Shown here piece by piece: positions 2,045 through 10,585 of a DNA stretch of 10,585 nucleotides; the stretch's first letter is position 1; each line of letters begins with the position of its first letter. Below the pieces are notes generated by a model. The model was not told the DNA's origin and did no database searches. It worked only from the letters and a program-made list of their open reading frames with translations. The translations under genes were made by a program, and so were the position numbers. Location of the stretch: assembly GCA_030619435.1 (NCBI GenBank), contig JAUXBI010000031.1:1-10585 (forward strand). The letters are read 5' to 3'. The DNA is from Syntrophaceae bacterium. Lineage in GTDB: Bacteria > Desulfobacterota > Syntrophia > Syntrophales > UBA2210.

Positions 2045-3094
2045 ATGGGCTGGAAGGATAATGATGGAAACCCGTGGGGTAACCGGCAGTCGCCCAATTT
2101 AAAGGAGACGGTTGAGAAGATCAAAAAATCAATTCCTTTCAAAATTCCATTTGGCGGGAAATTCGGTTTGATTCCGATAATAGTTGTAGTCCTGCTGATT
2201 CTCTGGCTTGCATCCGGGATATATTTTGTCGCACCCGACGAGGCCGGTGTGGTTAAAAGATTCGGCAAGGCAGTGCGTACCACTACACCGGGCCCTCATT
2301 ATCATATTCCGGTGCCGGTGGAAACGGTTATGAAACCGAAAGTGACGCAGGTGCAAAGAATAGAAATAGGATTCAGGACCATAGGAGACAGGCAGCTCGG
2401 CAGATTAAGATCTGTAACCAATGAAAGCCTGATGCTTACCAAGGCCGAGAACATAGTGAACCTGACCTTTATCGTTCAGTACAAGATAAAAGACGCGATT
2501 GCATATCTGTTTAATGTGAAGAATCAGGCCAAGACAGTAAAGGATGCCGCGGAAGCCGCCATGCGCGAAACGGTTGGAGAAAGCGAAATCGATGATATCC
2601 TGACCGTAGGCAAGTTCAAGGTTCAGCAGGATACGAAGGCGATTCTTCAAAAAATATTGGATAGTTATAAGGCGGGGATACATATAGTAGCCGTTCAGCT
2701 TCAGGATGTTCATCCCCCCGATCAGGTTATGGCCGCATTTAAGGACGTCGCCAGCGCCAAGGAAGATAAAGCCAAGATGGTAAATGATGCGCACGGTTAT
2801 CGAAACGAAATACTGCCAAAGGCAAAGGGAAAGGCAGCCCAGATCACAAACGATGCCGTAGCCTATAAGGAAGCCAAGATTATATCCGCCGAAGGTGACA
2901 CGAGCAGATTCCTGCAGATACTCGCTCAGTACAGGACAGCCAGGGAAGTGACAAAGAAAAGGCTGTATATCGAAATGATGGAGGAGATACTTCCCGGAAT
3001 TGATAAGGTTATAGTAGAGGATAAGATAGGAAGAAATATGCTGCCGCATTTGTCGCTTGGCAGAGAGATTGATAAGAAGATAAATACGAAGTAG
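2045..3094 (+). CDS. hflK: HflK, SPFH-domain regulator of FtsH protease
   Basis: HflK pairs with HflC to form a large inner-membrane assembly that surrounds FtsH and modulates its access to membrane substrates. The 349-residue protein has a short cytoplasmic N-terminus with the NPWG motif (residues 9-12) and one transmembrane segment (about 41-60). A band-7/SPFH domain begins around VAPDEAGVVKRFG (62-74). The conserved block VQLQDVHPPDQVMAAFKDV (217-235) leads into an Ala/Lys/Glu-rich helix containing GYRNEILPKAKG (251-262). It is shorter than E. coli HflK (about 419 residues), mostly because the Gly-rich N-terminal tail is reduced. The ATG at 2045 is supported by GGGAGG at 2032-2037, spaced 7 nt. 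hflC follows after 22 nt with its own ribosome binding site, the standard hflKC order. No ftsH or hflX lies in the window. Confidence 0.93.
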   Translation: MGWKDNDGNPWGNRQSPNLKETVEKIKKSIPFKIPFGGKFGLIPIIVVVLLILWLASGIYFVAPDEAGVVKRFGKAVRTTTPGPHYHIPVPVETVMKPKVTQVQRIEIGFRTIGDRQLGRLRSVTNESLMLTKAENIVNLTFIVQYKIKDAIAYLFNVKNQAKTVKDAAEAAMRETVGESEIDDILTVGKFKVQQDTKAILQKILDSYKAGIHIVAVQLQDVHPPDQVMAAFKDVASAKEDKAKMVNDAHGYRNEILPKAKGKAAQITNDAVAYKEAKIISAEGDTSRFLQILAQYRTAREVTKKRLYIEMMEEILPGIDKVIVEDKIGRNMLPHLSLGREIDKKINTK

Positions 3095-3116
3095 CAGGGA
3101 ATTCTGGAGGCTGATA

Positions 3117-3965
3117 ATGAAATTAAAAGGAAAAATAGGAGTAATCGCCGGTCTGATTGTTGTTCTTGTTGTATCGCTCTCACTTTTTACCGTGGATCAG
3201 ACGCAGCAGGCGATTGTCATACAGATGGGAAAACCGCTGGACGGTATATATGGGCCCGGTCTCCACTTTAAAGTGCCCTTTATTCAACAGGTGATGAATT
3301 TTGAAAAAAGGATACTCGTATATGACGCGTCTCCGACCGAGATACTCACAAAGGATAAAAAGAATCTTGTCGTGGACAATTATACGAAGTGGGCCATTAA
3401 TAATCCGCTGAGGTTCTATACCACGGTGAGAAATGAAAGAGGCGCGCAGGCAAGGCTGGATGATATTGTGTACGCGCAGCTCAGAGTTGAACTGGGGCAG
3501 CATGATTTGTCGGATATTGTATCTGAAACCAGGGACGCGCTTATGGCGAAGGTAACAAAGAAATCGGCCAAGCGTGCGGAAGGATATGGCATCCGTGTCG
3601 TGGATGTGAGGATAAAGCGTGCGGATCTGCCTGAGCAGAATGAAAAGCATGTGTTCGGGCGGATGAAGGCAGAAAGGGAAAGACAGGCAAAACAGTACCG
3701 TTCAGAGGGCGAGGAGGAATCCAAGAAGATTACGGCAAAGGCGGATATGGAAAGGACTATCATCCTGGCAGAGGCTTACAAGATATCTGAGGAGCTGAAA
3801 GGTGAAGGAGATGCCCGGGCGGTAAAGATATACGCCGACGCGTACCAGAAAGATATAGGATTCTATGAGTTTATCAGGAGCCTCGAGGCGTACAAAAAAG
3901 CGCTCAAGGAAGACACGAAACTGATCACCACTTTAAATACGCAGTTTTTTAAGTATATGAACTGA
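3117..3965 (+). CDS. hflC: HflC, SPFH-domain partner of HflK
   Basis: The 282-residue product is the second subunit of the HflKC membrane complex. It has an N-terminal signal-anchor segment (residues 6-25) with the bulk of the protein expected in the periplasm. The SPFH domain starts at VDQTQQAIVIQMGKP (26-40) and includes GPGLHFKVPF (46-55). The diagnostic HflC helix begins RMKAERERQAKQYRSEG (182-198) and continues into EEES and an Ala/Lys-rich stretch; this is almost the textbook HflC signature. The C-terminus ends FFKYMN. The ATG at 3117 has GGAGG at 3106-3110, spaced 6 nt. Length is slightly below that of E. coli HflC (334). No intrinsic terminator lies directly after the stop codon, so hflKC transcripts probably run into the attenuator leader at 4035-4213. 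Confidence 0.94.
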   Translation: MKLKGKIGVIAGLIVVLVVSLSLFTVDQTQQAIVIQMGKPLDGIYGPGLHFKVPFIQQVMNFEKRILVYDASPTEILTKDKKNLVVDNYTKWAINNPLRFYTTVRNERGAQARLDDIVYAQLRVELGQHDLSDIVSETRDALMAKVTKKSAKRAEGYGIRVVDVRIKRADLPEQNEKHVFGRMKAERERQAKQYRSEGEEESKKITAKADMERTIILAEAYKISEELKGEGDARAVKIYADAYQKDIGFYEFIRSLEAYKKALKEDTKLITTLNTQFFKYMN

Positions 3966-3975
3966 TAAATTTTTC

Positions 3976-4004
3976 TTGACTTTATCGCGTTTTAATTTTA
4001 TGAA
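3976..4004 (+). promoter_or_regulatory. Predicted sigma70 promoter for the attenuator leader and ABC operon
   Basis: TTGACT (3976-3981, 5 of 6 to consensus) and TATGAA (3999-4004, 4 of 6) are separated by exactly 17 nt, starting 10 nt after the hflC stop. The predicted start near 4011 would give a leader RNA of about 225 nt and place the leader-peptide ATG about 25 nt from the 5' end, as expected for a transcription attenuator. No promoter candidate fits between the downstream terminators and the binding-protein gene, which supports this upstream position. Confidence 0.55.
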
Positions 4005-4034
4005 GTCTGGAAATCGGTAAGGATAGTGGAGAAA

Positions 4035-4118
4035 ATGGAGAACGTTATTTGCAAACAGACAGGTGGATTTTTTAGCTTTTTTAGTTTTTTTGCGGAGGTC
4101 TGCCTTCTGAGCTCTTGA
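4035..4118 (+). CDS. Phe-rich attenuator leader peptide (27 aa)
   Basis: This short ORF reads M-E-N-V-I-C-K-Q-T-G-G then FFSFFSFF then A-E-V-C-L-L-S-S, stop. Six of 27 codons are phenylalanine, all TTT, in three tandem pairs at 4068-4073, 4077-4082 and 4086-4091. The pattern resembles the leader peptides of the E. coli pheA and pheST attenuators, in which slow decoding of Phe codons stalls the ribosome. The stop codon (4116-4118) lies about 20 nt before the 5' arm of a terminator. The ORF covers GGTCTGCC (4097-4104), which can pair with that arm. A ribosome finishing translation would mask this segment, while one stalled at the Phe codons would leave it free. The ribosome binding site is weak: GGAG (4028-4031) is only 3 nt from ATG and AAGGA (4019-4023) is 11 nt away. 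The T-rich tract alone could give Phe codons by chance; the linked hairpins make that unlikely. Confidence 0.75.
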   Translation: MENVICKQTGGFFSFFSFFAEVCLLSS

Positions 4119-4152
4119 CGTATACAGGCGTTATATGAGCCGTGGGCAGACC
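4097..4152 (+). promoter_or_regulatory. Antiterminator hairpin (segments 2:3) of the Phe attenuator
   Basis: GGTCTGCC at 4097-4104 is perfectly complementary to GGCAGACC at 4145-4152, and T4105-G4144 can add a wobble pair. Inside it, GCTC (4111-4114) pairs with GAGC (4137-4140). TTGACG without its first T (4116-4120) pairs with 4129-4133, with one wobble, around an 8-nt loop. The 3' arm uses 4145-4149, which is also part of the 5' arm of the terminator at 4139-4169, so the two structures exclude each other. A possible pause pairing upstream is CAGAC (4056-4060) with GTCTG (4098-4102). The arrangement fits segments 1, 2, 3 and 4 of an amino-acid attenuator. Confidence 0.7.
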
Positions 4153-4176
4153 GAGCGACTGTCCACGGCTTTTTTT
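4139..4176 (+). terminator. Intrinsic terminator (segments 3:4) of the attenuator
   Basis: An 11-bp stem pairs 4139-4149 (GCCGTGGGCAG) with 4159-4169 (CTGTCCACGGC), with one G-U pair, around a 9-nt loop (4150-4158). It is followed at once by seven T (4170-4176). This is a strong rho-independent terminator. It lies between the predicted promoter and the binding-protein gene, so transcription of that gene must pass it, and it may also end hflKC readthrough transcripts. Confidence 0.88.
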
Positions 4177-4180
4177 GTTT

Positions 4181-4213
4181 AAAGGCTGTGGGATCAATTC
4201 CGCGGCCTTTTTT
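4181..4213 (+). terminator. Second tandem intrinsic terminator
   Basis: A 13-bp stem pairs 4181-4193 with 4198-4210, including three G-U wobbles, around the tetraloop TCAA. It begins AAAGGC and ends GCCTTT followed by TTT, giving six T at 4208-4213. It lies 11 nt downstream of the first stem and ends 7 nt before the AAGGAGG (4221-4227) of the next gene. Its 5' arm can instead pair with the 3' arm of the first terminator (4162-4169 with 4185-4192). A shift to the antiterminator could therefore disable both. Confidence 0.75.
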
Positions 4214-4235
4214 ATTTTGAAAGGAGGAACAAACA

Positions 4236-5435
4236 ATGCGCAAAATATGTTGTATCATCACAGGTCTTATTGTCATTCTGGGTATGGTCCCGGGCGTACA
4301 CGCAAAGGCGATAAAGGTGGGGGCGGCGATTAACCTCACAGGTCCGGCGTCCACATGGGGGCAGTTTCATGCAAAGGGTCAACAGGATTATTTCCGTTAT
4401 GTAAATGAAGTAAAAGGCGGCGTGGATGGAAACGAGATAGAGATGAAGCTCGTGGATACCATGTACAAGGTTCCCGAGGCCGTGGCGGCGGTCAGAAAGT
4501 TTGCCGTCAGCGACAAAGTGGATATGATTGCCACCTGGGGCGCGGGCGAAGGACTTGCGGCTAAGCCCATTATACAGAGATACGGGATACCGGCGATAAA
4601 CTACTCCACAAGCTGGGAGATCCTCAAGAAACCGGTCGATTACATGTATCTTCCATTCGGAAGTTATCGCATGGATTGCTACGCGGTTCTGGAATATATC
4701 CGTGCAACTCATAAAGGCAAGGATGCGCCAAGGGTTGGTCTTCTGACATACAATAACGCCTATGGACGTTCGATACACGAACCGAGCAGGGAATACGCTG
4801 CGAAGCATAATATAGACATCGTAACGATTGAAGAATTTCCCCCGAGGACCCTTGATCTGACGACTGAACTGTTGCGCCTGAAAAAGAACGGGGCGGAATA
4901 TGTTTTCATGCAGATGCTTCCGGCGGCGATAATCACCACTTTTAAATGTGCCGACAGGATAGATTATAAACCGGAATTTTTCGGAACATGGACATCTACC
5001 GACCCCGATTTTTTCAGAATGGGCAAGGGCTTAATCAGAGATCGCCTTAAGATACAGTTCCCCGGTGGTCTGCCGGTTGATAAAACCGAGGGTATGAAAA
5101 TTATGGAAGATCTATGGACACGTTATAAGACCGTTGATAAGTTTGACGCGTCCTACTGGGAGGGGGTTGTAGTAGGAATGATTATGGAGAGAGCCTTCAT
5201 CCGCGCCAATGAAAAATATGGAAAGATAACAAGAAAAACGATAAATATGGCGATGGAATCCTTCTCAAATGAAGATTTCGGGGGACTTGTGCCCAACATT
5301 ACCTATACGAAAACAGATCACGAAGGATCATTCAAGGGGAGAATCGTCAAGGTGTGTGAAGATGGACGATATGTCCCCATTACAAACTTTTTTGTTCCAG
5401 GGAAAGAAGAGATAAAGATTCTGGAGAAAAAATGA
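4236..5435 (+). CDS. Periplasmic substrate-binding protein of a LIV/HAAT-type ABC transporter
   Basis: The 399-residue protein captures the substrate in the periplasm and delivers it to the permease pair encoded downstream. A Sec signal peptide covers residues 1-23: basic MRK, a hydrophobic core, and cleavage after VHA. The mature part opens KAIKVGAAINLTGPASTWGQ, the usual first strand of the type I periplasmic-binding fold (Peripla_BP_6). Later family-like stretches are ATWGAGEGLAAKPI, VGLLTYNNAYGRS and EFFGTWTSTDPDF. Cysteines at residues 5 and 6 are too early for a lipobox, so it is probably soluble. The ATG at 4236 has AAGGAGG (4221-4227) 8 nt upstream. It is the first structural gene after the Phe attenuator, and its stop overlaps the next start as ATGA. 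Family name alone suggests branched-chain amino acids, but related proteins bind amides, urea and aromatic acids. The leader argues for an aromatic ligand. Confidence 0.9.
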   Translation: MRKICCIITGLIVILGMVPGVHAKAIKVGAAINLTGPASTWGQFHAKGQQDYFRYVNEVKGGVDGNEIEMKLVDTMYKVPEAVAAVRKFAVSDKVDMIATWGAGEGLAAKPIIQRYGIPAINYSTSWEILKKPVDYMYLPFGSYRMDCYAVLEYIRATHKGKDAPRVGLLTYNNAYGRSIHEPSREYAAKHNIDIVTIEEFPPRTLDLTTELLRLKKNGAEYVFMQMLPAAIITTFKCADRIDYKPEFFGTWTSTDPDFFRMGKGLIRDRLKIQFPGGLPVDKTEGMKIMEDLWTRYKTVDKFDASYWEGVVVGMIMERAFIRANEKYGKITRKTINMAMESFSNEDFGGLVPNITYTKTDHEGSFKGRIVKVCEDGRYVPITNFFVPGKEEIKILEKK

Positions 5436-6253
5436 AGGCTTTTCGCGGGCAGCCTGACATATTCAAGGCGATATCCGGTGACGGGAAACGCGCTGATCTG
5501 GAAGTGAGCCATCTTACCCTGAGCTTCGGAGGCGTTATGGCTTTGAACAATATCGACTTCGAGGTAAAGACCGGAGAACTGTTCGCGATTATAGGACCCA
5601 ACGGTGCCGGAAAGACAAGCCTCCTGAACTGCCTTACGGGGTTCTACAGGCCACAGGCGGGCAGGATAAAGTTCAACGGAAAGGATATAACAAATCTCCC
5701 GACGCACAAGCTTATAAGCAGCGGCGTCGGGAGAACATTCCAGAATATTGAGCTGTTCCCCGGGATGACGGTTCTGTCCAATATGCTCCTGGCACGCCAT
5801 ATCCATTGCAGCTACGGACTGGGCAAGGCGCTTCTTTTCATGCGTGGTGTGCGAAGAGAAGAAGTCAGGCACCGCGCTGTCGTGGAAGAATTGATCGATT
5901 TCCTGGAAATGCAGGCAATTCGGAAAAAGCCAGTTGGATCACTACCTTATGGATTGCGGAAAAGGGTTGAGCTTGGTCGCGCGCTGGCTCTTGAGCCGAA
6001 ACTTCTGGTGCTGGACGAACCTTTTGCCGGGATGAATCTTGAAGAGAAGGAAGATATGGTGAGATTCCTGTCCGAATTAAACAGGGATTGGGGGCAGACA
6101 ATGATACTCGTTGAGCACGACATGTCTATTGTGATGAGTATATCTAAACGCATAATGGTTTTAAATTTCGGAGATAAACTGGCCGAGGGAACACCTGAAG
6201 CAATACAGAATGATCCGGAAGTTATAAGGGCCTATCTGGGAGATACGCAATGA
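5432..6253 (+). CDS. livG: LivG-type ABC transporter ATPase
   Basis: This cytoplasmic ATPase (273 residues) powers the importer, normally as a heterodimer with a LivF-type subunit. Walker A is GPNGAGKT (55-62), the Q-loop Gln is at 104 in VGRTFQNIELFP, and the signature is the LivG form LPYGLRKRVELGRAL (171-185). Walker B and the catalytic Glu are in LLVLDEP (Glu196), followed by FAGMN. The switch His is His229 in LVEHDMSIVM. An extra 20 or so residues precede the ATPase core, which begins at LEVSHLTLSFGG. The start overlaps the binding-protein stop as ATGA, with GGAG at 5423-5426, so translation is probably coupled. The gene in turn overlaps the acyl-CoA synthetase start by ATGA. All catalytic residues are intact. 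The name reflects family, not proven substrate. Confidence 0.93.
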   Translation: MKAFRGQPDIFKAISGDGKRADLEVSHLTLSFGGVMALNNIDFEVKTGELFAIIGPNGAGKTSLLNCLTGFYRPQAGRIKFNGKDITNLPTHKLISSGVGRTFQNIELFPGMTVLSNMLLARHIHCSYGLGKALLFMRGVRREEVRHRAVVEELIDFLEMQAIRKKPVGSLPYGLRKRVELGRALALEPKLLVLDEPFAGMNLEEKEDMVRFLSELNRDWGQTMILVEHDMSIVMSISKRIMVLNFGDKLAEGTPEAIQNDPEVIRAYLGDTQ

Positions 6254-8196
6254 GCCCGAAATCCGAAACTCAGGATTCTAAACCCTTAAAAGGGGGCATG
6301 TCCGAAGCTGGCCTCACGCTTCCGCAGATTCTGCTGAAGCATGCGGAAGAACTCGGAAAGCGCACCTCGATTCGTGAAAAAGCGTATGGCATATGGCAGT
6401 CATACAGCTGGCGCGACTATCTGGAGTTTACGAAAAAAGTGGGGTTGGGCCTCAGTGCTCTCGGTCTGAGAAGAGGTGATAATGTCGGGATTATAATGGA
6501 CAATCACCCGGAGTGGTTATTCACTCAATTGGGGGGGCAATCCCTTGGCGCCGTTACCCTGAACCTGTTTACCTCTGCGGTGAGCGAGGAGATGGCCGGC
6601 ACCCTTAATAGAATTCAAGCTGTGTACGTAATTGTAGAGGATCAGGAGCAGGCGGATAAACTGTTGGAAATGCGTGACAGGCTTACCCATGTAAAGAAAG
6701 TCATATATGTTGACCGGACGGGCATGAGCTCTTATCGCAACGATGAGTGGCTTATTAGTTTTGCCGACCTGCTGGAACTAGGCGAAGACCTGGATAAAAA
6801 GCAGCCGGATTTGTTTGCCAGGGAGGTATGGAAGGGGAGACCGGACGACATTGCCCTGATGATAATGACTTCGGGAACAACCGGCATCTCTAAACTGGCA
6901 ATGCTGTCGCACATCAATTTTATCGAGATGGCTGCAAGCTGGATGGAAACAATTCCCGCGGGTGTGGAGGTGAACTGGTTGTCGATTTCTCCTCCGGCAT
7001 GGATAGTCGATCAGATGTGGGGGACAGGCGTGGCTCTGGCTGGTGGTATGATAATGAACTTTCCTGAGACCCGGGAAACAACTCTCGAGGATTTCCGTGA
7101 ATTAGGCCCCAATATACTTATTACATCATCCAGGTTCTGGGAAGATCTTGCCTCTACAATTCGGGTAAAGATGGGTGATGCCGGTTTGATAAGAAGGAAG
7201 CTCTTTCATCTGGCGGGGAATATAGGCGGCAGGATCACTGATCTGGAGTCACAGGGAAAAACACCCGGCCCTGGTCTCAGACTCGCGGGGTGGCTGGCCT
7301 CTGTTATTATCTTTCGTCCGCTTCTGGACCGGATTGGTTGCGCCGGGTTTTACAGCGCGTATACGGGGGGACATCCGATAAGTCCTGATGTTATAAGGTT
7401 TTTTCGCTCGCTTGGCCTGAATCTCAAACAATGTTACGGGCTTACAGAGTCGGGTGGAATCTTTCAGGTTCAGCCCGATAATGAAGTCAAGGCAGAGACA
7501 GTTGGCAGATCCTTGTCCGGCATGGATGTAAAGATTTCGGAGGATCAGGAGGTCTTTCTGTCAAGCAAAACGATGTTCAGGGGATATTATAACGATTTTG
7601 AGGCCACGCAGGCAGCGTTTGCGGATGGCTGGTTGAGGACCGGGGATGCCGGATATATTGATGATGACAACCACCTCGTTATTATAGGGCGCAGAGAAGA
7701 GATCATCAGAAACAAGCAGGGAGAGGCATTTTCCCCTGATTTTATAGAGACACGTCTGAAATTCAGTCCCTACATAAGAGAGGCGGTAACCTTTGGCGAA
7801 GGGCGTCCATACATAACCGCGCTGATAAACATTGATATGGGGAACGTTGGCAACTGGGCCGAAGAGAGAATGATACCCTACACAACATATACCGATCTCT
7901 CACAACAGGCAGAGGTAGAAAAACTGGTGCATACGGAAGTTGGGAAGGTTAATGAAAAGTTGCCGGATTCGATGAAGGTGCGCAAGTGTATACTTCTCTA
8001 CAAGCTTCTCGACGCGGATGATGATGAGCTGACAAGGACAGGCAAGGTGCGTAGGAGATTTGTCTACGGGCTCTATCTGAAGCTTATAACCGCCATGTAC
8101 GAGAATAAAAAAGATCTGGATGTGAAGACAAAGGTGCGCTACCGGGACGGTCAGGTGGTCACACTGGAAACCAGGGTACGTATATTAGAATTTTAG
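6250..8196 (+). CDS. AMP-forming acyl-CoA synthetase embedded in the ABC operon
   Basis: The 648-residue enzyme belongs to the adenylate-forming superfamily and should activate a carboxylic acid to an acyl-AMP and then its CoA thioester. The P-loop is TSGTTGISK (207-215), where the usual Pro before Lys is Ser214. The adenine/Mg motif is YGLTES (396-401, Glu400), and the ribose-binding motif is TGDAGYID (464-471). The hinge is GRREEIIRNKQGE (480-492) and the catalytic lysine is probably Lys599 in LTRTGKVRRR. The blocks PPAWIVDQMWGTG (248-260) and PDVIRFFRSLGLNLKQCYG (379-397) mark the long-chain/FadD15-like group often found inside LIV-type operons. The substrate could be a fatty, aryl or other acid and cannot be fixed from sequence. 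It overlaps the ATPase gene by ATGA and precedes the LivH gene by 19 nt, so it is part of the operon. It has no signal peptide. Confidence 0.9.
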   Translation: MSPKSETQDSKPLKGGMSEAGLTLPQILLKHAEELGKRTSIREKAYGIWQSYSWRDYLEFTKKVGLGLSALGLRRGDNVGIIMDNHPEWLFTQLGGQSLGAVTLNLFTSAVSEEMAGTLNRIQAVYVIVEDQEQADKLLEMRDRLTHVKKVIYVDRTGMSSYRNDEWLISFADLLELGEDLDKKQPDLFAREVWKGRPDDIALMIMTSGTTGISKLAMLSHINFIEMAASWMETIPAGVEVNWLSISPPAWIVDQMWGTGVALAGGMIMNFPETRETTLEDFRELGPNILITSSRFWEDLASTIRVKMGDAGLIRRKLFHLAGNIGGRITDLESQGKTPGPGLRLAGWLASVIIFRPLLDRIGCAGFYSAYTGGHPISPDVIRFFRSLGLNLKQCYGLTESGGIFQVQPDNEVKAETVGRSLSGMDVKISEDQEVFLSSKTMFRGYYNDFEATQAAFADGWLRTGDAGYIDDDNHLVIIGRREEIIRNKQGEAFSPDFIETRLKFSPYIREAVTFGEGRPYITALINIDMGNVGNWAEERMIPYTTYTDLSQQAEVEKLVHTEVGKVNEKLPDSMKVRKCILLYKLLDADDDELTRTGKVRRRFVYGLYLKLITAMYENKKDLDVKTKVRYRDGQVVTLETRVRILEF

Positions 8197-8215: not shown

Positions 8216-9094
8216 ATGGAATTTTTCATCCAGCTTTTGGTAAATGGAATAAGCATAGGTTTTCTATATGGCCTGGCAGCCATGGGATTTGTAATGATCT
8301 TCAAATCTTCCAGCGTGTTGAATTTTGCGCATGGGGAGTTGATGGCGCTGGGGGCATTTGTATTTCTGGTTCTGATTGGCTGGGCTGAACTGCCTATCTA
8401 TGTGGCCTTTCCCCTGGCCCTTGCCGGATCTTTTATACTTGGATTCGTTGTTGAACGTCTCTTTCTGCGTCCTCTGATCGGTGAACCTCTTATCTATGTT
8501 ATCATGCTCACTGTGGGATTGGCCTCTATATTCAAGGGGATAATGTTGTTCATATGGGGTGGAAATCTATATACCTTTCCGGACTTTCTCCCGGCGGGTC
8601 TTGCCATACACTGGGGCAGTATAAATATACCTCCGGTTTATGTCGTATCGGTCATTATTGGCTTGATATTTCTTATGCTTTTTGGACTCTTTTTTAAATA
8701 TTCCTCTCAGGGCATATATATGAGATCGGTTGCGGATAACCAGCCGGCCGCTCTCTCTCTCGGGGTGCACGTAAGAAAGGTTTTTGCCCTGTCCTGGGCT
8801 ATCGCGGCCCTCGTAGCGGGCATGAGCGGGATTGTCCTTGGCACAATCAACGGGATTAATGTCCATGATCTTTCTTCCATAGGACTAAAGGTCTTTCCGG
8901 TGGTTATACTGGGAGGTTTGGACAGTATCGGAGGGGCTGTTATCGGAGGGATAATAATCGGTCTTCTGGAAACTTTTACAGGCGGATACCTGTCCACTTC
9001 ACTGCGAGACGTAGTTCCTTACATCGCACTTGTATTTATACTCATGGTGAAGCCATATGGTCTTTTCGGTCTGGTAGAGATTGAGAGGGTTTGA
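8216..9094 (+). CDS. livH: LivH-type ABC transporter permease
   Basis: This 292-residue polytopic membrane protein is one of the two channel subunits. It starts MEFFIQLLVNGISIGFLYGLAAMGF, the hallmark N-terminus of LivH proteins, followed by SSSVLNFAHGELMALGAF (31-48). The cytoplasmic EAA-like coupling loop is around MRSVADNQPAALSLGV (169-184). The conserved C-terminal block ILGGLDSIGGAVIGG spans 231-245. About eight hydrophobic segments are visible, the usual count for the family, and the length is normal. The ATG at 8216 has AGGAGG at 8202-8207, spaced 8 nt. Its stop codon overlaps the LivM ATG by one base. Together with the LivM protein it should form the substrate path served by the binding protein at 4236-5435. 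Confidence 0.93.
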   Translation: MEFFIQLLVNGISIGFLYGLAAMGFVMIFKSSSVLNFAHGELMALGAFVFLVLIGWAELPIYVAFPLALAGSFILGFVVERLFLRPLIGEPLIYVIMLTVGLASIFKGIMLFIWGGNLYTFPDFLPAGLAIHWGSINIPPVYVVSVIIGLIFLMLFGLFFKYSSQGIYMRSVADNQPAALSLGVHVRKVFALSWAIAALVAGMSGIVLGTINGINVHDLSSIGLKVFPVVILGGLDSIGGAVIGGIIIGLLETFTGGYLSTSLRDVVPYIALVFILMVKPYGLFGLVEIERV

Positions 9095-10164
9095 TGCGAA
9101 AATTGCACTTTCACCCCTGCGGTAACTTTAACGAAAGATACGAGCAGGAACTTACGATTTTTGAGACTGATTTCGGGCGTACATCCCTTGCTGCCGGGCT
9201 TGTAATACTGTTCGCGGTGGTTCCCTATGCAAGCGGACCATATCTTCTCTATGTCCTCAATATCGCCGCTATTACAGCAATAGCGGCGATTGGTCTGAAC
9301 ATACTGATAGGGTTTACCGGCCAGCTTTCCCTCGGACATGGAGCCTTTTTCGGGGTGGGCGCCTATGCAGCGGCCATACTTTCTACAGAGGTGGGTTTCC
9401 CTTTTCTTCTTGCAGTACCCTCCGCCGGACTGATAACCGCCATGGTGGGAACACTCTTCGGATTGCCTTCGTGGAGATTGAAGGGTTTATATCTGACAAT
9501 CGCAACTCTTGCCGGACAGTTTATCATTGAATATCTCCTTGTCCACTGGGAAGGGCTTACAAAGGGAACCATGGGGATTGTGCTTCCAGGAATATCCATA
9601 TTCGGTGTAGCGTTTGATACTGACAGAAGCTTTTTTTATATCGCCTATACCTGCTTGATTATTATGACACTTGTTGCCGTTAACCTCATGAGGACGAGTT
9701 ATGGAAGGGCGTTCATAGCGATACGCGACAATGACCGGGCTGCCGAGGGAATGGGTATTCCTATACTTTCCTATAAACTTCTATCATTTGCGATAAGTTC
9801 CTTTTACGCGGGAGTAGCCGGCGCCCTGTGGGCATATTACATGATCAGTATCACAGCGGAACCCTTTAATCTGGGCCTTTCCGTGGAATATATAGCAATG
9901 GTTATCATAGGCGGGTTGGGGAGTATCGCCGGTTCCATCTATGGCGCCCTGTTTATTGTAGGCTTGAATGAAGGATTGCGGTGGCTGACAGGTATTCTTA
10001 TGAGCGTTGATATGCTCAGCGCGGTGGGGTTTTCAATGGCTCCGCTACGTGAGATAGCATTTGGAGCGGCCATAGTCCTCTTTATTCTGCTGGAACCGAG
10101 GGGGCTTGCCGAGGTGTGGCGTATTATTCGTTCCAATTTCAGACTCTGGCCATTTTCGTACTGA
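9094..10164 (+). CDS. livM: LivM-type ABC transporter permease
   Basis: This 356-residue membrane protein is the second channel subunit. The family signature GFTGQLSLGHGAFFGVGAYAAA starts at residue 73 (G73-F85 is its core). The coupling loop is around AIRDNDRAAEGMGI (209-222), and the C-terminal block IIGGLGSIAGSIYGALF (271-287) mirrors that of LivH. A hydrophilic stretch of about 28 residues precedes the first membrane segment; it contains NERYEQEL and could lie at the cytoplasmic face. The ATG at 9094 shares its A with the LivH stop (TGATG) and has AGAGGG at 9084-9089. A TTG at 9091 in the same frame would add one residue and is less likely. No missing segments are apparent. Confidence 0.92.
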   Translation: MRKLHFHPCGNFNERYEQELTIFETDFGRTSLAAGLVILFAVVPYASGPYLLYVLNIAAITAIAAIGLNILIGFTGQLSLGHGAFFGVGAYAAAILSTEVGFPFLLAVPSAGLITAMVGTLFGLPSWRLKGLYLTIATLAGQFIIEYLLVHWEGLTKGTMGIVLPGISIFGVAFDTDRSFFYIAYTCLIIMTLVAVNLMRTSYGRAFIAIRDNDRAAEGMGIPILSYKLLSFAISSFYAGVAGALWAYYMISITAEPFNLGLSVEYIAMVIIGGLGSIAGSIYGALFIVGLNEGLRWLTGILMSVDMLSAVGFSMAPLREIAFGAAIVLFILLEPRGLAEVWRIIRSNFRLWPFSY

Positions 10165-10186: not shown

Positions 10187-10585
10187 ATGCAACAAGATAT
10201 TTTACTTCAATTAAACAATATAAGTGTAGTTTATTCAGATGTTATCCAGGTATTGAAAGGCGTCTCACTCTTTGTTAAGGAGAACCAGATTGTATCTCTT
10301 CTCGGTAGCAACGGGGCCGGAAAAACTACAACCCTGAAAGCCATCTCAGGGCTCCTTAAAACGGAGAATGGAAAGGTTACAGATGGTGATATTGTATACA
10401 GGGAAAGCTCTATTCAGAATTCTCCGCCGGAGACCATTACGCGCCGTGGTATCATTCAGGTACTTGAGGGGAGGCAACCCTTCAAGTATTTGACGATAGA
10501 AGAGAATTTGAGAGTTGGAACAGCTACACGCTGGGGCAAGCCTTACAAAAAGGATATGGAGCTTATATATGACTACTTTCCGCCA
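10187..10585 (+). CDS. livF: LivF-type ABC transporter ATPase, N-terminal part (runs off right edge)
   Basis: The visible 133 codons encode the start of the second ATPase. Walker A is GSNGAGKT (40-47), and the Q-loop Gln91 lies in IIQVLEGRQPFKYLTIEENL, which matches the LivF pattern 'VPEGR..F..+T+EENL'. The signature motif, Walker B and switch His lie beyond the window, so completeness cannot be judged. The gene begins 22 nt after the LivM stop, with AGAGGGGG (10177-10184) just upstream of the ATG at 10187. It completes the five-component importer (binding protein, two permeases, two ATPases). A segment around DGDIVYRESSIQNSPPE (67-83) is slightly unusual in wording but sits where LivF proteins have a variable loop. 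Confidence 0.9.
   Translation, partial: MQQDILLQLNNISVVYSDVIQVLKGVSLFVKENQIVSLLGSNGAGKTTTLKAISGLLKTENGKVTDGDIVYRESSIQNSPPETITRRGIIQVLEGRQPFKYLTIEENLRVGTATRWGKPYKKDMELIYDYFPP

Follow-up and report, generated by a model that had tools for sequence, protein, structure and literature searches.

A predicted phenylalanine attenuator precedes a LIV-type importer and acyl-CoA ligase operon in Syntrophales

Positions 4011-4213 of the DNA analysed here almost certainly form a ribosome-mediated attenuator that senses charged tRNA-Phe, as judged from the sequence and its conservation among relatives. The stretch of DNA (hereafter the window) is 10,585 nt long and is contig C63 of a 1.6-Mb metagenome genome with an estimated completeness of 81%; the named relatives closest to it are bins assigned to deltaproteobacteria, Syntrophobacterales and Syntrophaceae. 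The leader is placed between hflC and a six-gene operon for a binding protein, LivG, an AMP-forming ligase, LivH, LivM and LivF. On balance, we consider it probable that this Phe attenuator controls the import of a scavenged aryl acid, at best guess phenylacetate, which is activated with CoA and turned into Phe.

Results

Leader parts in the window

The features of the leader region, all on the forward strand, are as follows.

3976-4004, forward: possible promoter, TTGACT-17-TATGAA, by hexamer pattern
4035-4118, forward: leader peptide ORF MENVICKQTGGFFSFFSFFAEVCLLSS, 27 codons, ATG at 4035 and stop TGA at 4116-4118, read directly
4056-4060, forward: segment 1 (CAGAC), complementary to 4098-4102 inside segment 2 (1:2)
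4068-4091, forward: three Phe codon pairs (4068-4073, 4077-4082 and 4086-4091), proposed stall site
4097-4104, forward: segment 2, GGTCTGCC, exact complement of segment 3
4137-4176, forward: first terminator (3:4), 13 pairs, stem 4137-4149 with 4159-4171, T7 tail at 4170-4176
4145-4152, forward: segment 3, GGCAGACC, antiterminator partner of segment 2, by conserved pairing and fold energy
4162-4192, forward: candidate 4:5 hairpin, 12 pairs, which would exclude both T-tailed hairpins, by fold energy
4181-4213, forward: second T-tailed hairpin (5:6); hairpin 4181-4210 found by terminator scan and folding

The preliminary description of this DNA had claimed an ORF of 27 codons with three Phe pairs, a segment 2 inside it with a complementary segment 3 downstream, and a T-tailed terminator overlapping segment 3. 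Each of these was borne out: the ORF can be read directly, segments 2 and 3 are exact complements, and the 5' arm of the first terminator includes positions 4145-4149 of segment 3. Segment 1, the second T-tailed hairpin and the possible promoter were all absent from that description. The motif GGAG at 4028-4031 is just 3 bases ahead of the ATG of the leader ORF. A stricter consensus scan listed neither the promoter at 3976-4004 nor the first terminator, whose loop is 9 bases. By pattern match without a shuffled control, 54 of the 68 leaders have TTGAC followed by a -10-like hexamer, usually 106-132 nt upstream of segment 2. The genes upstream of the leader, hflK and hflC (window 2045-3965), are ordinary, as is a phosphomannomutase-like gene on the opposite strand (539-1999).

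Across both strands of the window, a single short ORF is of this Phe-rich type, defined as 10-45 codons with at least 6 Phe in 8 codons (two possible starts, one stop). Among 2000 dinucleotide shuffles of positions 3966-4235, 15 had a Phe-rich ORF and none combined the ORF with an 8-bp 2:3 pairing and a T tail. Window folding gave -29.7 kcal/mol (z -4.05) for the 2:3 hairpin and -22.6 kcal/mol (z -4.79) for the 3:4 hairpin; the fold z of the entire leader region, 4011-4213, was -3.72, and the 1:2 fold was unexceptional in the window taken alone (z -1.17). The Rfam amino-acid leader families gave no match to the window leader above the gathering cut-off, and a further search returned nine weak matches (lowest E 0.44) with no Phe leader family among the nine. 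Searching the window's own genome by DNA similarity gave, apart from the window, matches that were short and weak.

Conservation of the leader

Of 79 named loci (80 less L112, in which the start of the binding protein is missing), 68 have a leader upstream of the orthologous operon. The 68 comprise the 65 in alignment A1 together with L053, L057 and L087, two of which are cut by the contig start; L069, with only 61 nt of upstream DNA to the contig start, was set aside from the count. The ten named loci in which no leader was found (L107, L109-L111 and L113-L118, with 289 nt of upstream DNA in L107 and 108 nt in L113) are more distant, their binding proteins being 66-70% identical to that of the window. 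In the set of 60 relatives, the leader model has a match upstream of at least 38 of the 41 full-length orthologues (the own genome being one of the genomes counted), a count that is not independent of the first because the model was trained on many of the same leaders and the two sets overlap (e.g., L039 is G004:C151). The 41 were reached from 45 genomes with a binding-protein match, own included, by removing truncated G001, G003 and G016 and the non-orthologue G043 (28%). In G030, G046 and G058 no leader was present among the matches listed, and none was seen by eye in 420 nt upstream.

In the alignment of 66 leaders, window included, segments 2 and 3 are paired in 96.9% of cells, compared with 21-51% when slid by 1-3 columns. 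Only two cells of 2:3 are doubly changed, and 13 of 500 shuffles match its paired percentage and covariation score; what supports 2:3 is invariance and the slide control. The terminator stem 3:4 is paired in 95.3% of cells, with compensatory change at five pairs and 46 doubly changed cells. The doubly changed cell count, the paired percentage and the covariation score of 3:4 were each reached by none of 500 shuffles, and the numbers of doubly changed pairs (206/500) and of pair types (426/500) were within the shuffled range.

The reading frame is likewise conserved. In 60 of the 62 leaders framed by script, 4-8 of the last 12 codons before segment 2 are Phe codons; the exceptions are L040, with three after a 9-nt deletion, and one taken as L088, which the script misframed. 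Trp codons are found in none of the 62 over the 14 codons examined in each. Seven leaders are outside the framed set (L059, L071, L077, L100, L102, L103 and L105), and six of these end the ORF at segment 2. Twenty rows hand-picked for the pattern FFxFFxFF, with L040 left out for its deletion, have Phe at 120 of 120 core codons (TTT 101, TTC 19), and their spacer codons vary among Ser, Gly, Ala, Tyr and Val; L069 was grouped with the leader-bearing loci in this codon tally. In most leaders the stop codon ends 22 nt past the start of segment 2; one group has a shorter peptide such as MAVEDITISSTNFFFFD, with the stop overlapping segment 2 and the 2:3 complementarity extended. Segment 1 (GGCAG or CAGAC, resembling segment 3) precedes the Phe codons in 38 of 67 leaders, against a mean of 3.4 and a maximum of 9 in 200 shuffles. 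The alignment of orthologous leaders that the preliminary description had proposed as a check therefore went in its favour: no aligned leader retains the terminator while having lost the Phe codons or 2:3, though L040 and L077 have few Phe codons and 9 of 65 rows lack the outermost 2:3 pair.

The operon and its ligases

The genes downstream of the leader, all on the forward strand, are as follows.

4236-5435, forward: LIV-type solute-binding protein (Peripla_BP_6), by family search and fold comparison
5432-6253, forward: LivG-type ATPase, by family search
6250-8196, forward: putative AMP-forming acyl-CoA ligase (AMP-binding, AMP-binding_C_3), by family search
8216-9094, forward: LivH-type permease, by family search
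9091-10164, forward: LivM-type permease, by family search
10187-10585, forward: LivF-type ATPase, cut by the contig end, by Pfam; a PaaK-like ligase is often next in relatives

By Pfam, the LIV (HAAT) ABC importer set is complete, with Peripla_BP_6, two BPD_transp_2 permeases and two ABC ATPases, the LivF fragment scoring 52.2 bits against a cut-off of 25. The window's importer proteins are under the curated NCBIfam cut-offs of the E. coli-type branched-chain amino acid importer (bits/cut-off: binding protein, 49.4/477; LivG, 273.7/362; LivH, 110.4/379; LivM, 122.4/366). The operon's AMP-forming ligase is far under all curated cut-offs in the family search. The nearest folds of the binding protein are titled valine, fatty acid, pyroglutamate, phenylpyruvate or hydroxybenzoate and point to no single ligand.

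In loci with enough DNA, leaderless copies included, an acyl-CoA ligase lies between livG and livH. Downstream of livF, on the same strand, a PaaK-like gene is present in 32 of 53 loci with a complete livF and in none of the 7 leaderless ones, one of which has just 315 nt after livF. Its start is within 300 nt of livF in 25 of the 32 and 661-1484 nt after livF in the other 7. No PaaK-like gene is seen in 14 of 46 leader-counted loci, two of the 14 having less than 500 nt downstream. The association (Fisher 0.00075) ignores relatedness and counts L069 as leader-bearing. Four of these proteins scored 166.5-202.1 bits against a PaaK (TIGR02155) cut-off of 646.3, which places them in the PaaK-like superfamily only. 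The acyl-CoA ligase in each copy with enough DNA, together with the PaaK-like second ligase in many, leads us to infer that the operon imports and activates a carboxylic acid.

Attenuators of the same style

Searches with a covariance model built from the leader recovered further attenuators in the window's genome and its relatives, and gave matches in 157 of 395 genomes taken from the phylum at E <= 0.001. The window's own genome has two of these: C91 has a leader reading NSYFGYFWYFG (Phe/Tyr/Trp) before DAHP synthase, 3-dehydroquinate synthase and prephenate dehydratase (aroF-aroB-pheA), and C117 has a leader reading SWWWWLN, with four Trp codons in a row, before trpE. Forty secondary matches were selected by hand from longer lists. 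In the first 20, the leader precedes an aro operon in 15, trpE in 1, an AMP-forming ligase in 3 and an SSF symporter with an AMP-forming ligase in 1. The 20 further matches precede trpE (4), trpB-like genes (2), ilvB-like genes (8, with Val or Ile runs), an aro operon (1), IOR alpha (Trp), a thiolase (Phe), an ADP-forming-type ligase (Phe) and an unassigned gene (Trp), and one has no leader. The names of trp, trpB, ilv, aro, IOR beta, TRAP and thiolase-neighbour genes are readings of first residues; those at L174, L175, L223, L179, L204, L239, L177, L181 and L176 were checked by family. The model match at L216 was rejected as noise and shows no leader.

Wherever the pathway is recognisable in this order (aro, trp, ilv), the leader codons match the product. 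Eight loci with genes read as ilvB (L206, L207, L209, L210, L212, L213, L215 and L220) have Val- or Ile-rich leaders with hairpins of similar style. At L208, a leader containing three Trp codons precedes the gene of an unassigned protein that is probably exported. Outside the order, L165, L167, L170 and L171 have leaders rich in aromatic residues, and the genes behind them read as shikimate-pathway genes and an archaeal-type aldolase.

Further Phe-rich leaders precede CoA ligases. They were found before AMP-forming ligases at L176, L177 and L181, before an SSF symporter and then the ligase at L179, and before an ADP-forming-type acyl-CoA ligase at L239 (G036:C6). At L204 (G036:C7) the Phe leader precedes a thiolase and a gene read as a zinc-ribbon protein. 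G036 gave no match to the binding protein and no IOR alpha match. The L176 ligase passes the cut-off of a long-chain fatty acid ligase subfamily (495.8 vs 476), which favours a fatty rather than an aryl acid at that locus.

Trp leaders and IOR

Trp leaders precede the alpha subunit gene of indolepyruvate:ferredoxin oxidoreductase (IOR) in 11 of 16 loci selected by hand from a longer list (L218, L221-L227 and L229-L231, two of the 11 in the window's genus). They have three or four Trp codons (W-R-W-W in one), and a T-tailed hairpin could be made out by eye. In most of the 11, the genes that follow read as IOR beta and TRAP importer components; IOR alpha, DctP and DctM were confirmed by family search at L223. 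The loci in which no Trp leader was seen are L197, L228, L232 and the own genome's two, one of which, L233, offers only 45 bases before the match in which a leader could lie. IOR alpha has matches at E <= 1e-40 in 59 of 60 relatives, 44 of them over the cut-off; the own genome has two, both under it.

IOR is not part of the window's operon. In at least 14 of the 60 relatives, leader and IOR alpha share a contig and are some 20-31 kb apart, as in G022:C20, G045:C43, G031:C25 and G048:C16 (in G056, IOR alpha is on the other strand). This proximity was dropped as operon evidence and treated as background gene order because, in the intervening stretches read in G022, G045, G031 and G048, the genes look like unrelated housekeeping genes on both strands.

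Discussion

The conserved Phe frame and the 2:3 and 3:4 helices support the attenuator interpretation of the preliminary description, and the leader appears to hold the parts of a four-segment, ribosome-mediated attenuator of the pheL type. With Phe plentiful, the ribosome would reach 4116-4118 and cover segment 2, 3:4 would form, and transcription would end near 4176, with a possible further stop at the second hairpin. With Phe scarce, the ribosome would stall at 4068-4091, allowing 2:3 to form, so that the terminator fails and the operon is made. In the absence of translation, 1:2 would form and 3:4 would terminate. Enteric pheA (PheL) and pheST are known Phe attenuators, and the leader is like theirs in having a short ORF with clustered Phe codons, segments 1-4, a 2:3 antiterminator and a T-tailed terminator. 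Unlike them, it belongs to another phylum, has no Rfam match and is often followed by a second T-tailed hairpin, and its target operon encodes an ABC importer and CoA ligase(s), whereas the enteric targets serve biosynthesis or tRNA charging. The predicted mechanism is thus of a known kind and is well supported by the sequence; what is new is the target operon, together with the Phe and Trp leaders on genes that resemble a regulon for aryl-acid salvage.

A further question is whether the second T-tailed hairpin extends the switch. It is possible, though doubtful, that the leader is a six-segment relay, an addition compatible with any of the readings discussed below, in which 2:3 would free segment 4, in the 3' arm of the first terminator, to pair with segment 5, in the 5' arm of the second hairpin, and so block that hairpin, the Phe-rich state being 1:2, 3:4 and 5:6. 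Such a 4:5 pairing would let a single antitermination event clear both T-tailed hairpins. The his attenuator has A:B, C:D and E:F pairings that alternate with B:C and D:E; the candidate here would be similar in its alternating six-segment pairing and different in that its middle and last hairpins are both T-tailed. The window's 4:5 hairpin folds well (-15.7 kcal/mol, z -4.62), and the mean 4:5 energy among leaders is -10.07, compared with -7.03 when segment 4 is shuffled. Native 4:5 pairs, however, are no better than cross-species pairings (142 of 200 shuffles are equally good), which suggests that the complementarity comes from a motif shared through duplication. Of the 68 leaders, 45 scored for a second T-tailed hairpin with a stem similar to the first, several only weakly, and the other 23 gave none. 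Because no cross-species covariation of 4:5 was found among the leaders, we treat the relay as a hypothesis. By eye, tandem T-tailed hairpins with related stems also occur in many aro leaders (e.g., L183, L185, L187 and L193), as the relay would lead one to expect.

The switch identifies the signal, charged tRNA-Phe, and not the ligand of the importer. Since leader codons match the product in the aro, trp, ilv and IOR-TRAP operons of the order, Phe is the most likely end product here as well. One route to it is suggested by the genes. In the aryl-acid route, an aryl acid is converted to its CoA thioester, carboxylated in a ferredoxin-dependent step and transaminated. We infer the same chemistry here: the operon would import a carboxylic acid, best guess phenylacetate, and activate it with CoA, an indolepyruvate-type ferredoxin oxidoreductase would carboxylate the activated acid to phenylpyruvate, and a transaminase would yield Phe. 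This would resemble the IOR-dependent route of Methanococcus maripaludis and the formation of Phe from phenylacetate in rumen anaerobes. In M. maripaludis, aryl acids feed a second aromatic amino acid pathway (Porat et al., as recounted in PMC4162585), and for the rumen anaerobes the reference list of PMC7356843 cites Allison 1965 on phenylacetic acid as a source of Phe. A literature search over titles and the starts of abstracts, with most subscription papers outside its reach, found no amino-acid-sensing attenuator on genes of the aryl-acid route. The binding-protein fold and importer class, by structure titles, are like those of the LIV-type aromatic-acid importers of Rhodopseudomonas palustris (4f8j, 4evq and others), with identity to the R. 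palustris binding proteins of only 13-16% among the matches listed. The Phe operon, with its importer and ligase(s), also looks like a counterpart of the Trp-led IOR operon, for which a rise of IOR in Trp shortage would be sensible only if the enzyme runs towards indolepyruvate, a direction suggested by the sign of attenuation.

An alternative explanation, and the main rival, is that the same attenuator controls an importer of Phe itself, or of aromatic amino acids, with the ligase as a passenger. LIV-type proteins are classic amino acid importers, amino-acid importers under amino-acid-sensing RNA switches follow a known logic, and the closest solved structure to the binding protein has valine bound. 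We nevertheless regard Phe import as unlikely. In loci with enough DNA the ligase sits between livG and livH, and this is so even for the leaderless copies, with their binding proteins of 66-70% identity to that of the window; many leader-bearing copies have a PaaK-like second ligase; and other Phe leaders precede CoA ligases with no LIV genes among the ORFs read.

Less probable still is that the imported acid is no Phe precursor at all (e.g., a fatty or branched acid used for energy or lipids) and that Phe-tRNA serves as a general signal of amino-acid starvation. Several observations are consistent with such an acid: the best curated match of the operon's ligase, albeit far below the cut-off (247.7 vs 950), is the fatty-acid CoA ligase FadD11; the L176 ligase is over the long-chain fatty acid subfamily cut-off; the second-best fold for the binding protein is 4n03, a fatty acid binding protein; and one Phe leader of G036 precedes a thiolase. 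The match of leader codons to product in the aro, trp and ilv operons of the order, and the lack of a Trp codon in any of the 62 framed leaders over the 14 codons examined, argue against a general signal. Finally, a plain terminator after hflC beside a chance T-rich ORF, with no attenuator, is very improbable, for while T-rich sequence easily yields Phe codons (the 15 of 2000 shuffles above), the conserved frame with its synonymous drift and the conservation of 1:2, 2:3 and 3:4 in the alignment contradict it.

Returning to the salvage of an aryl acid for Phe synthesis, the Phe and Trp leaders may belong together. It is close to an even call whether the Syntrophales and another family of the phylum have an attenuator-controlled aryl-acid salvage regulon, in which importers of carboxylates, along with CoA ligases, would be under Phe leaders and, in Syntrophales, IOR and a TRAP importer would be under Trp leaders. 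Phenylacetate and indoleacetate from neighbours would then be carboxylated to Phe and Trp in times of shortage.

Anaerobes have many LIV importers and AMP-forming ligases, few of them with an assigned substrate; a conserved attenuator reports the likely end product of such an operon from sequence alone. Together with the Trp leaders on IOR-TRAP operons, the Phe leader turns an old observation, that anaerobes build aromatic amino acids from aryl acids they scavenge, into a regulated pathway that can be tested in syntrophic bacteria. If true, the proposal would mean that the reductive aryl-acid route has a genetic circuit dedicated to it, would give an orphan LIV importer a substrate, and would imply that phenylacetate and indoleacetate are cross-fed between members of methanogenic communities.
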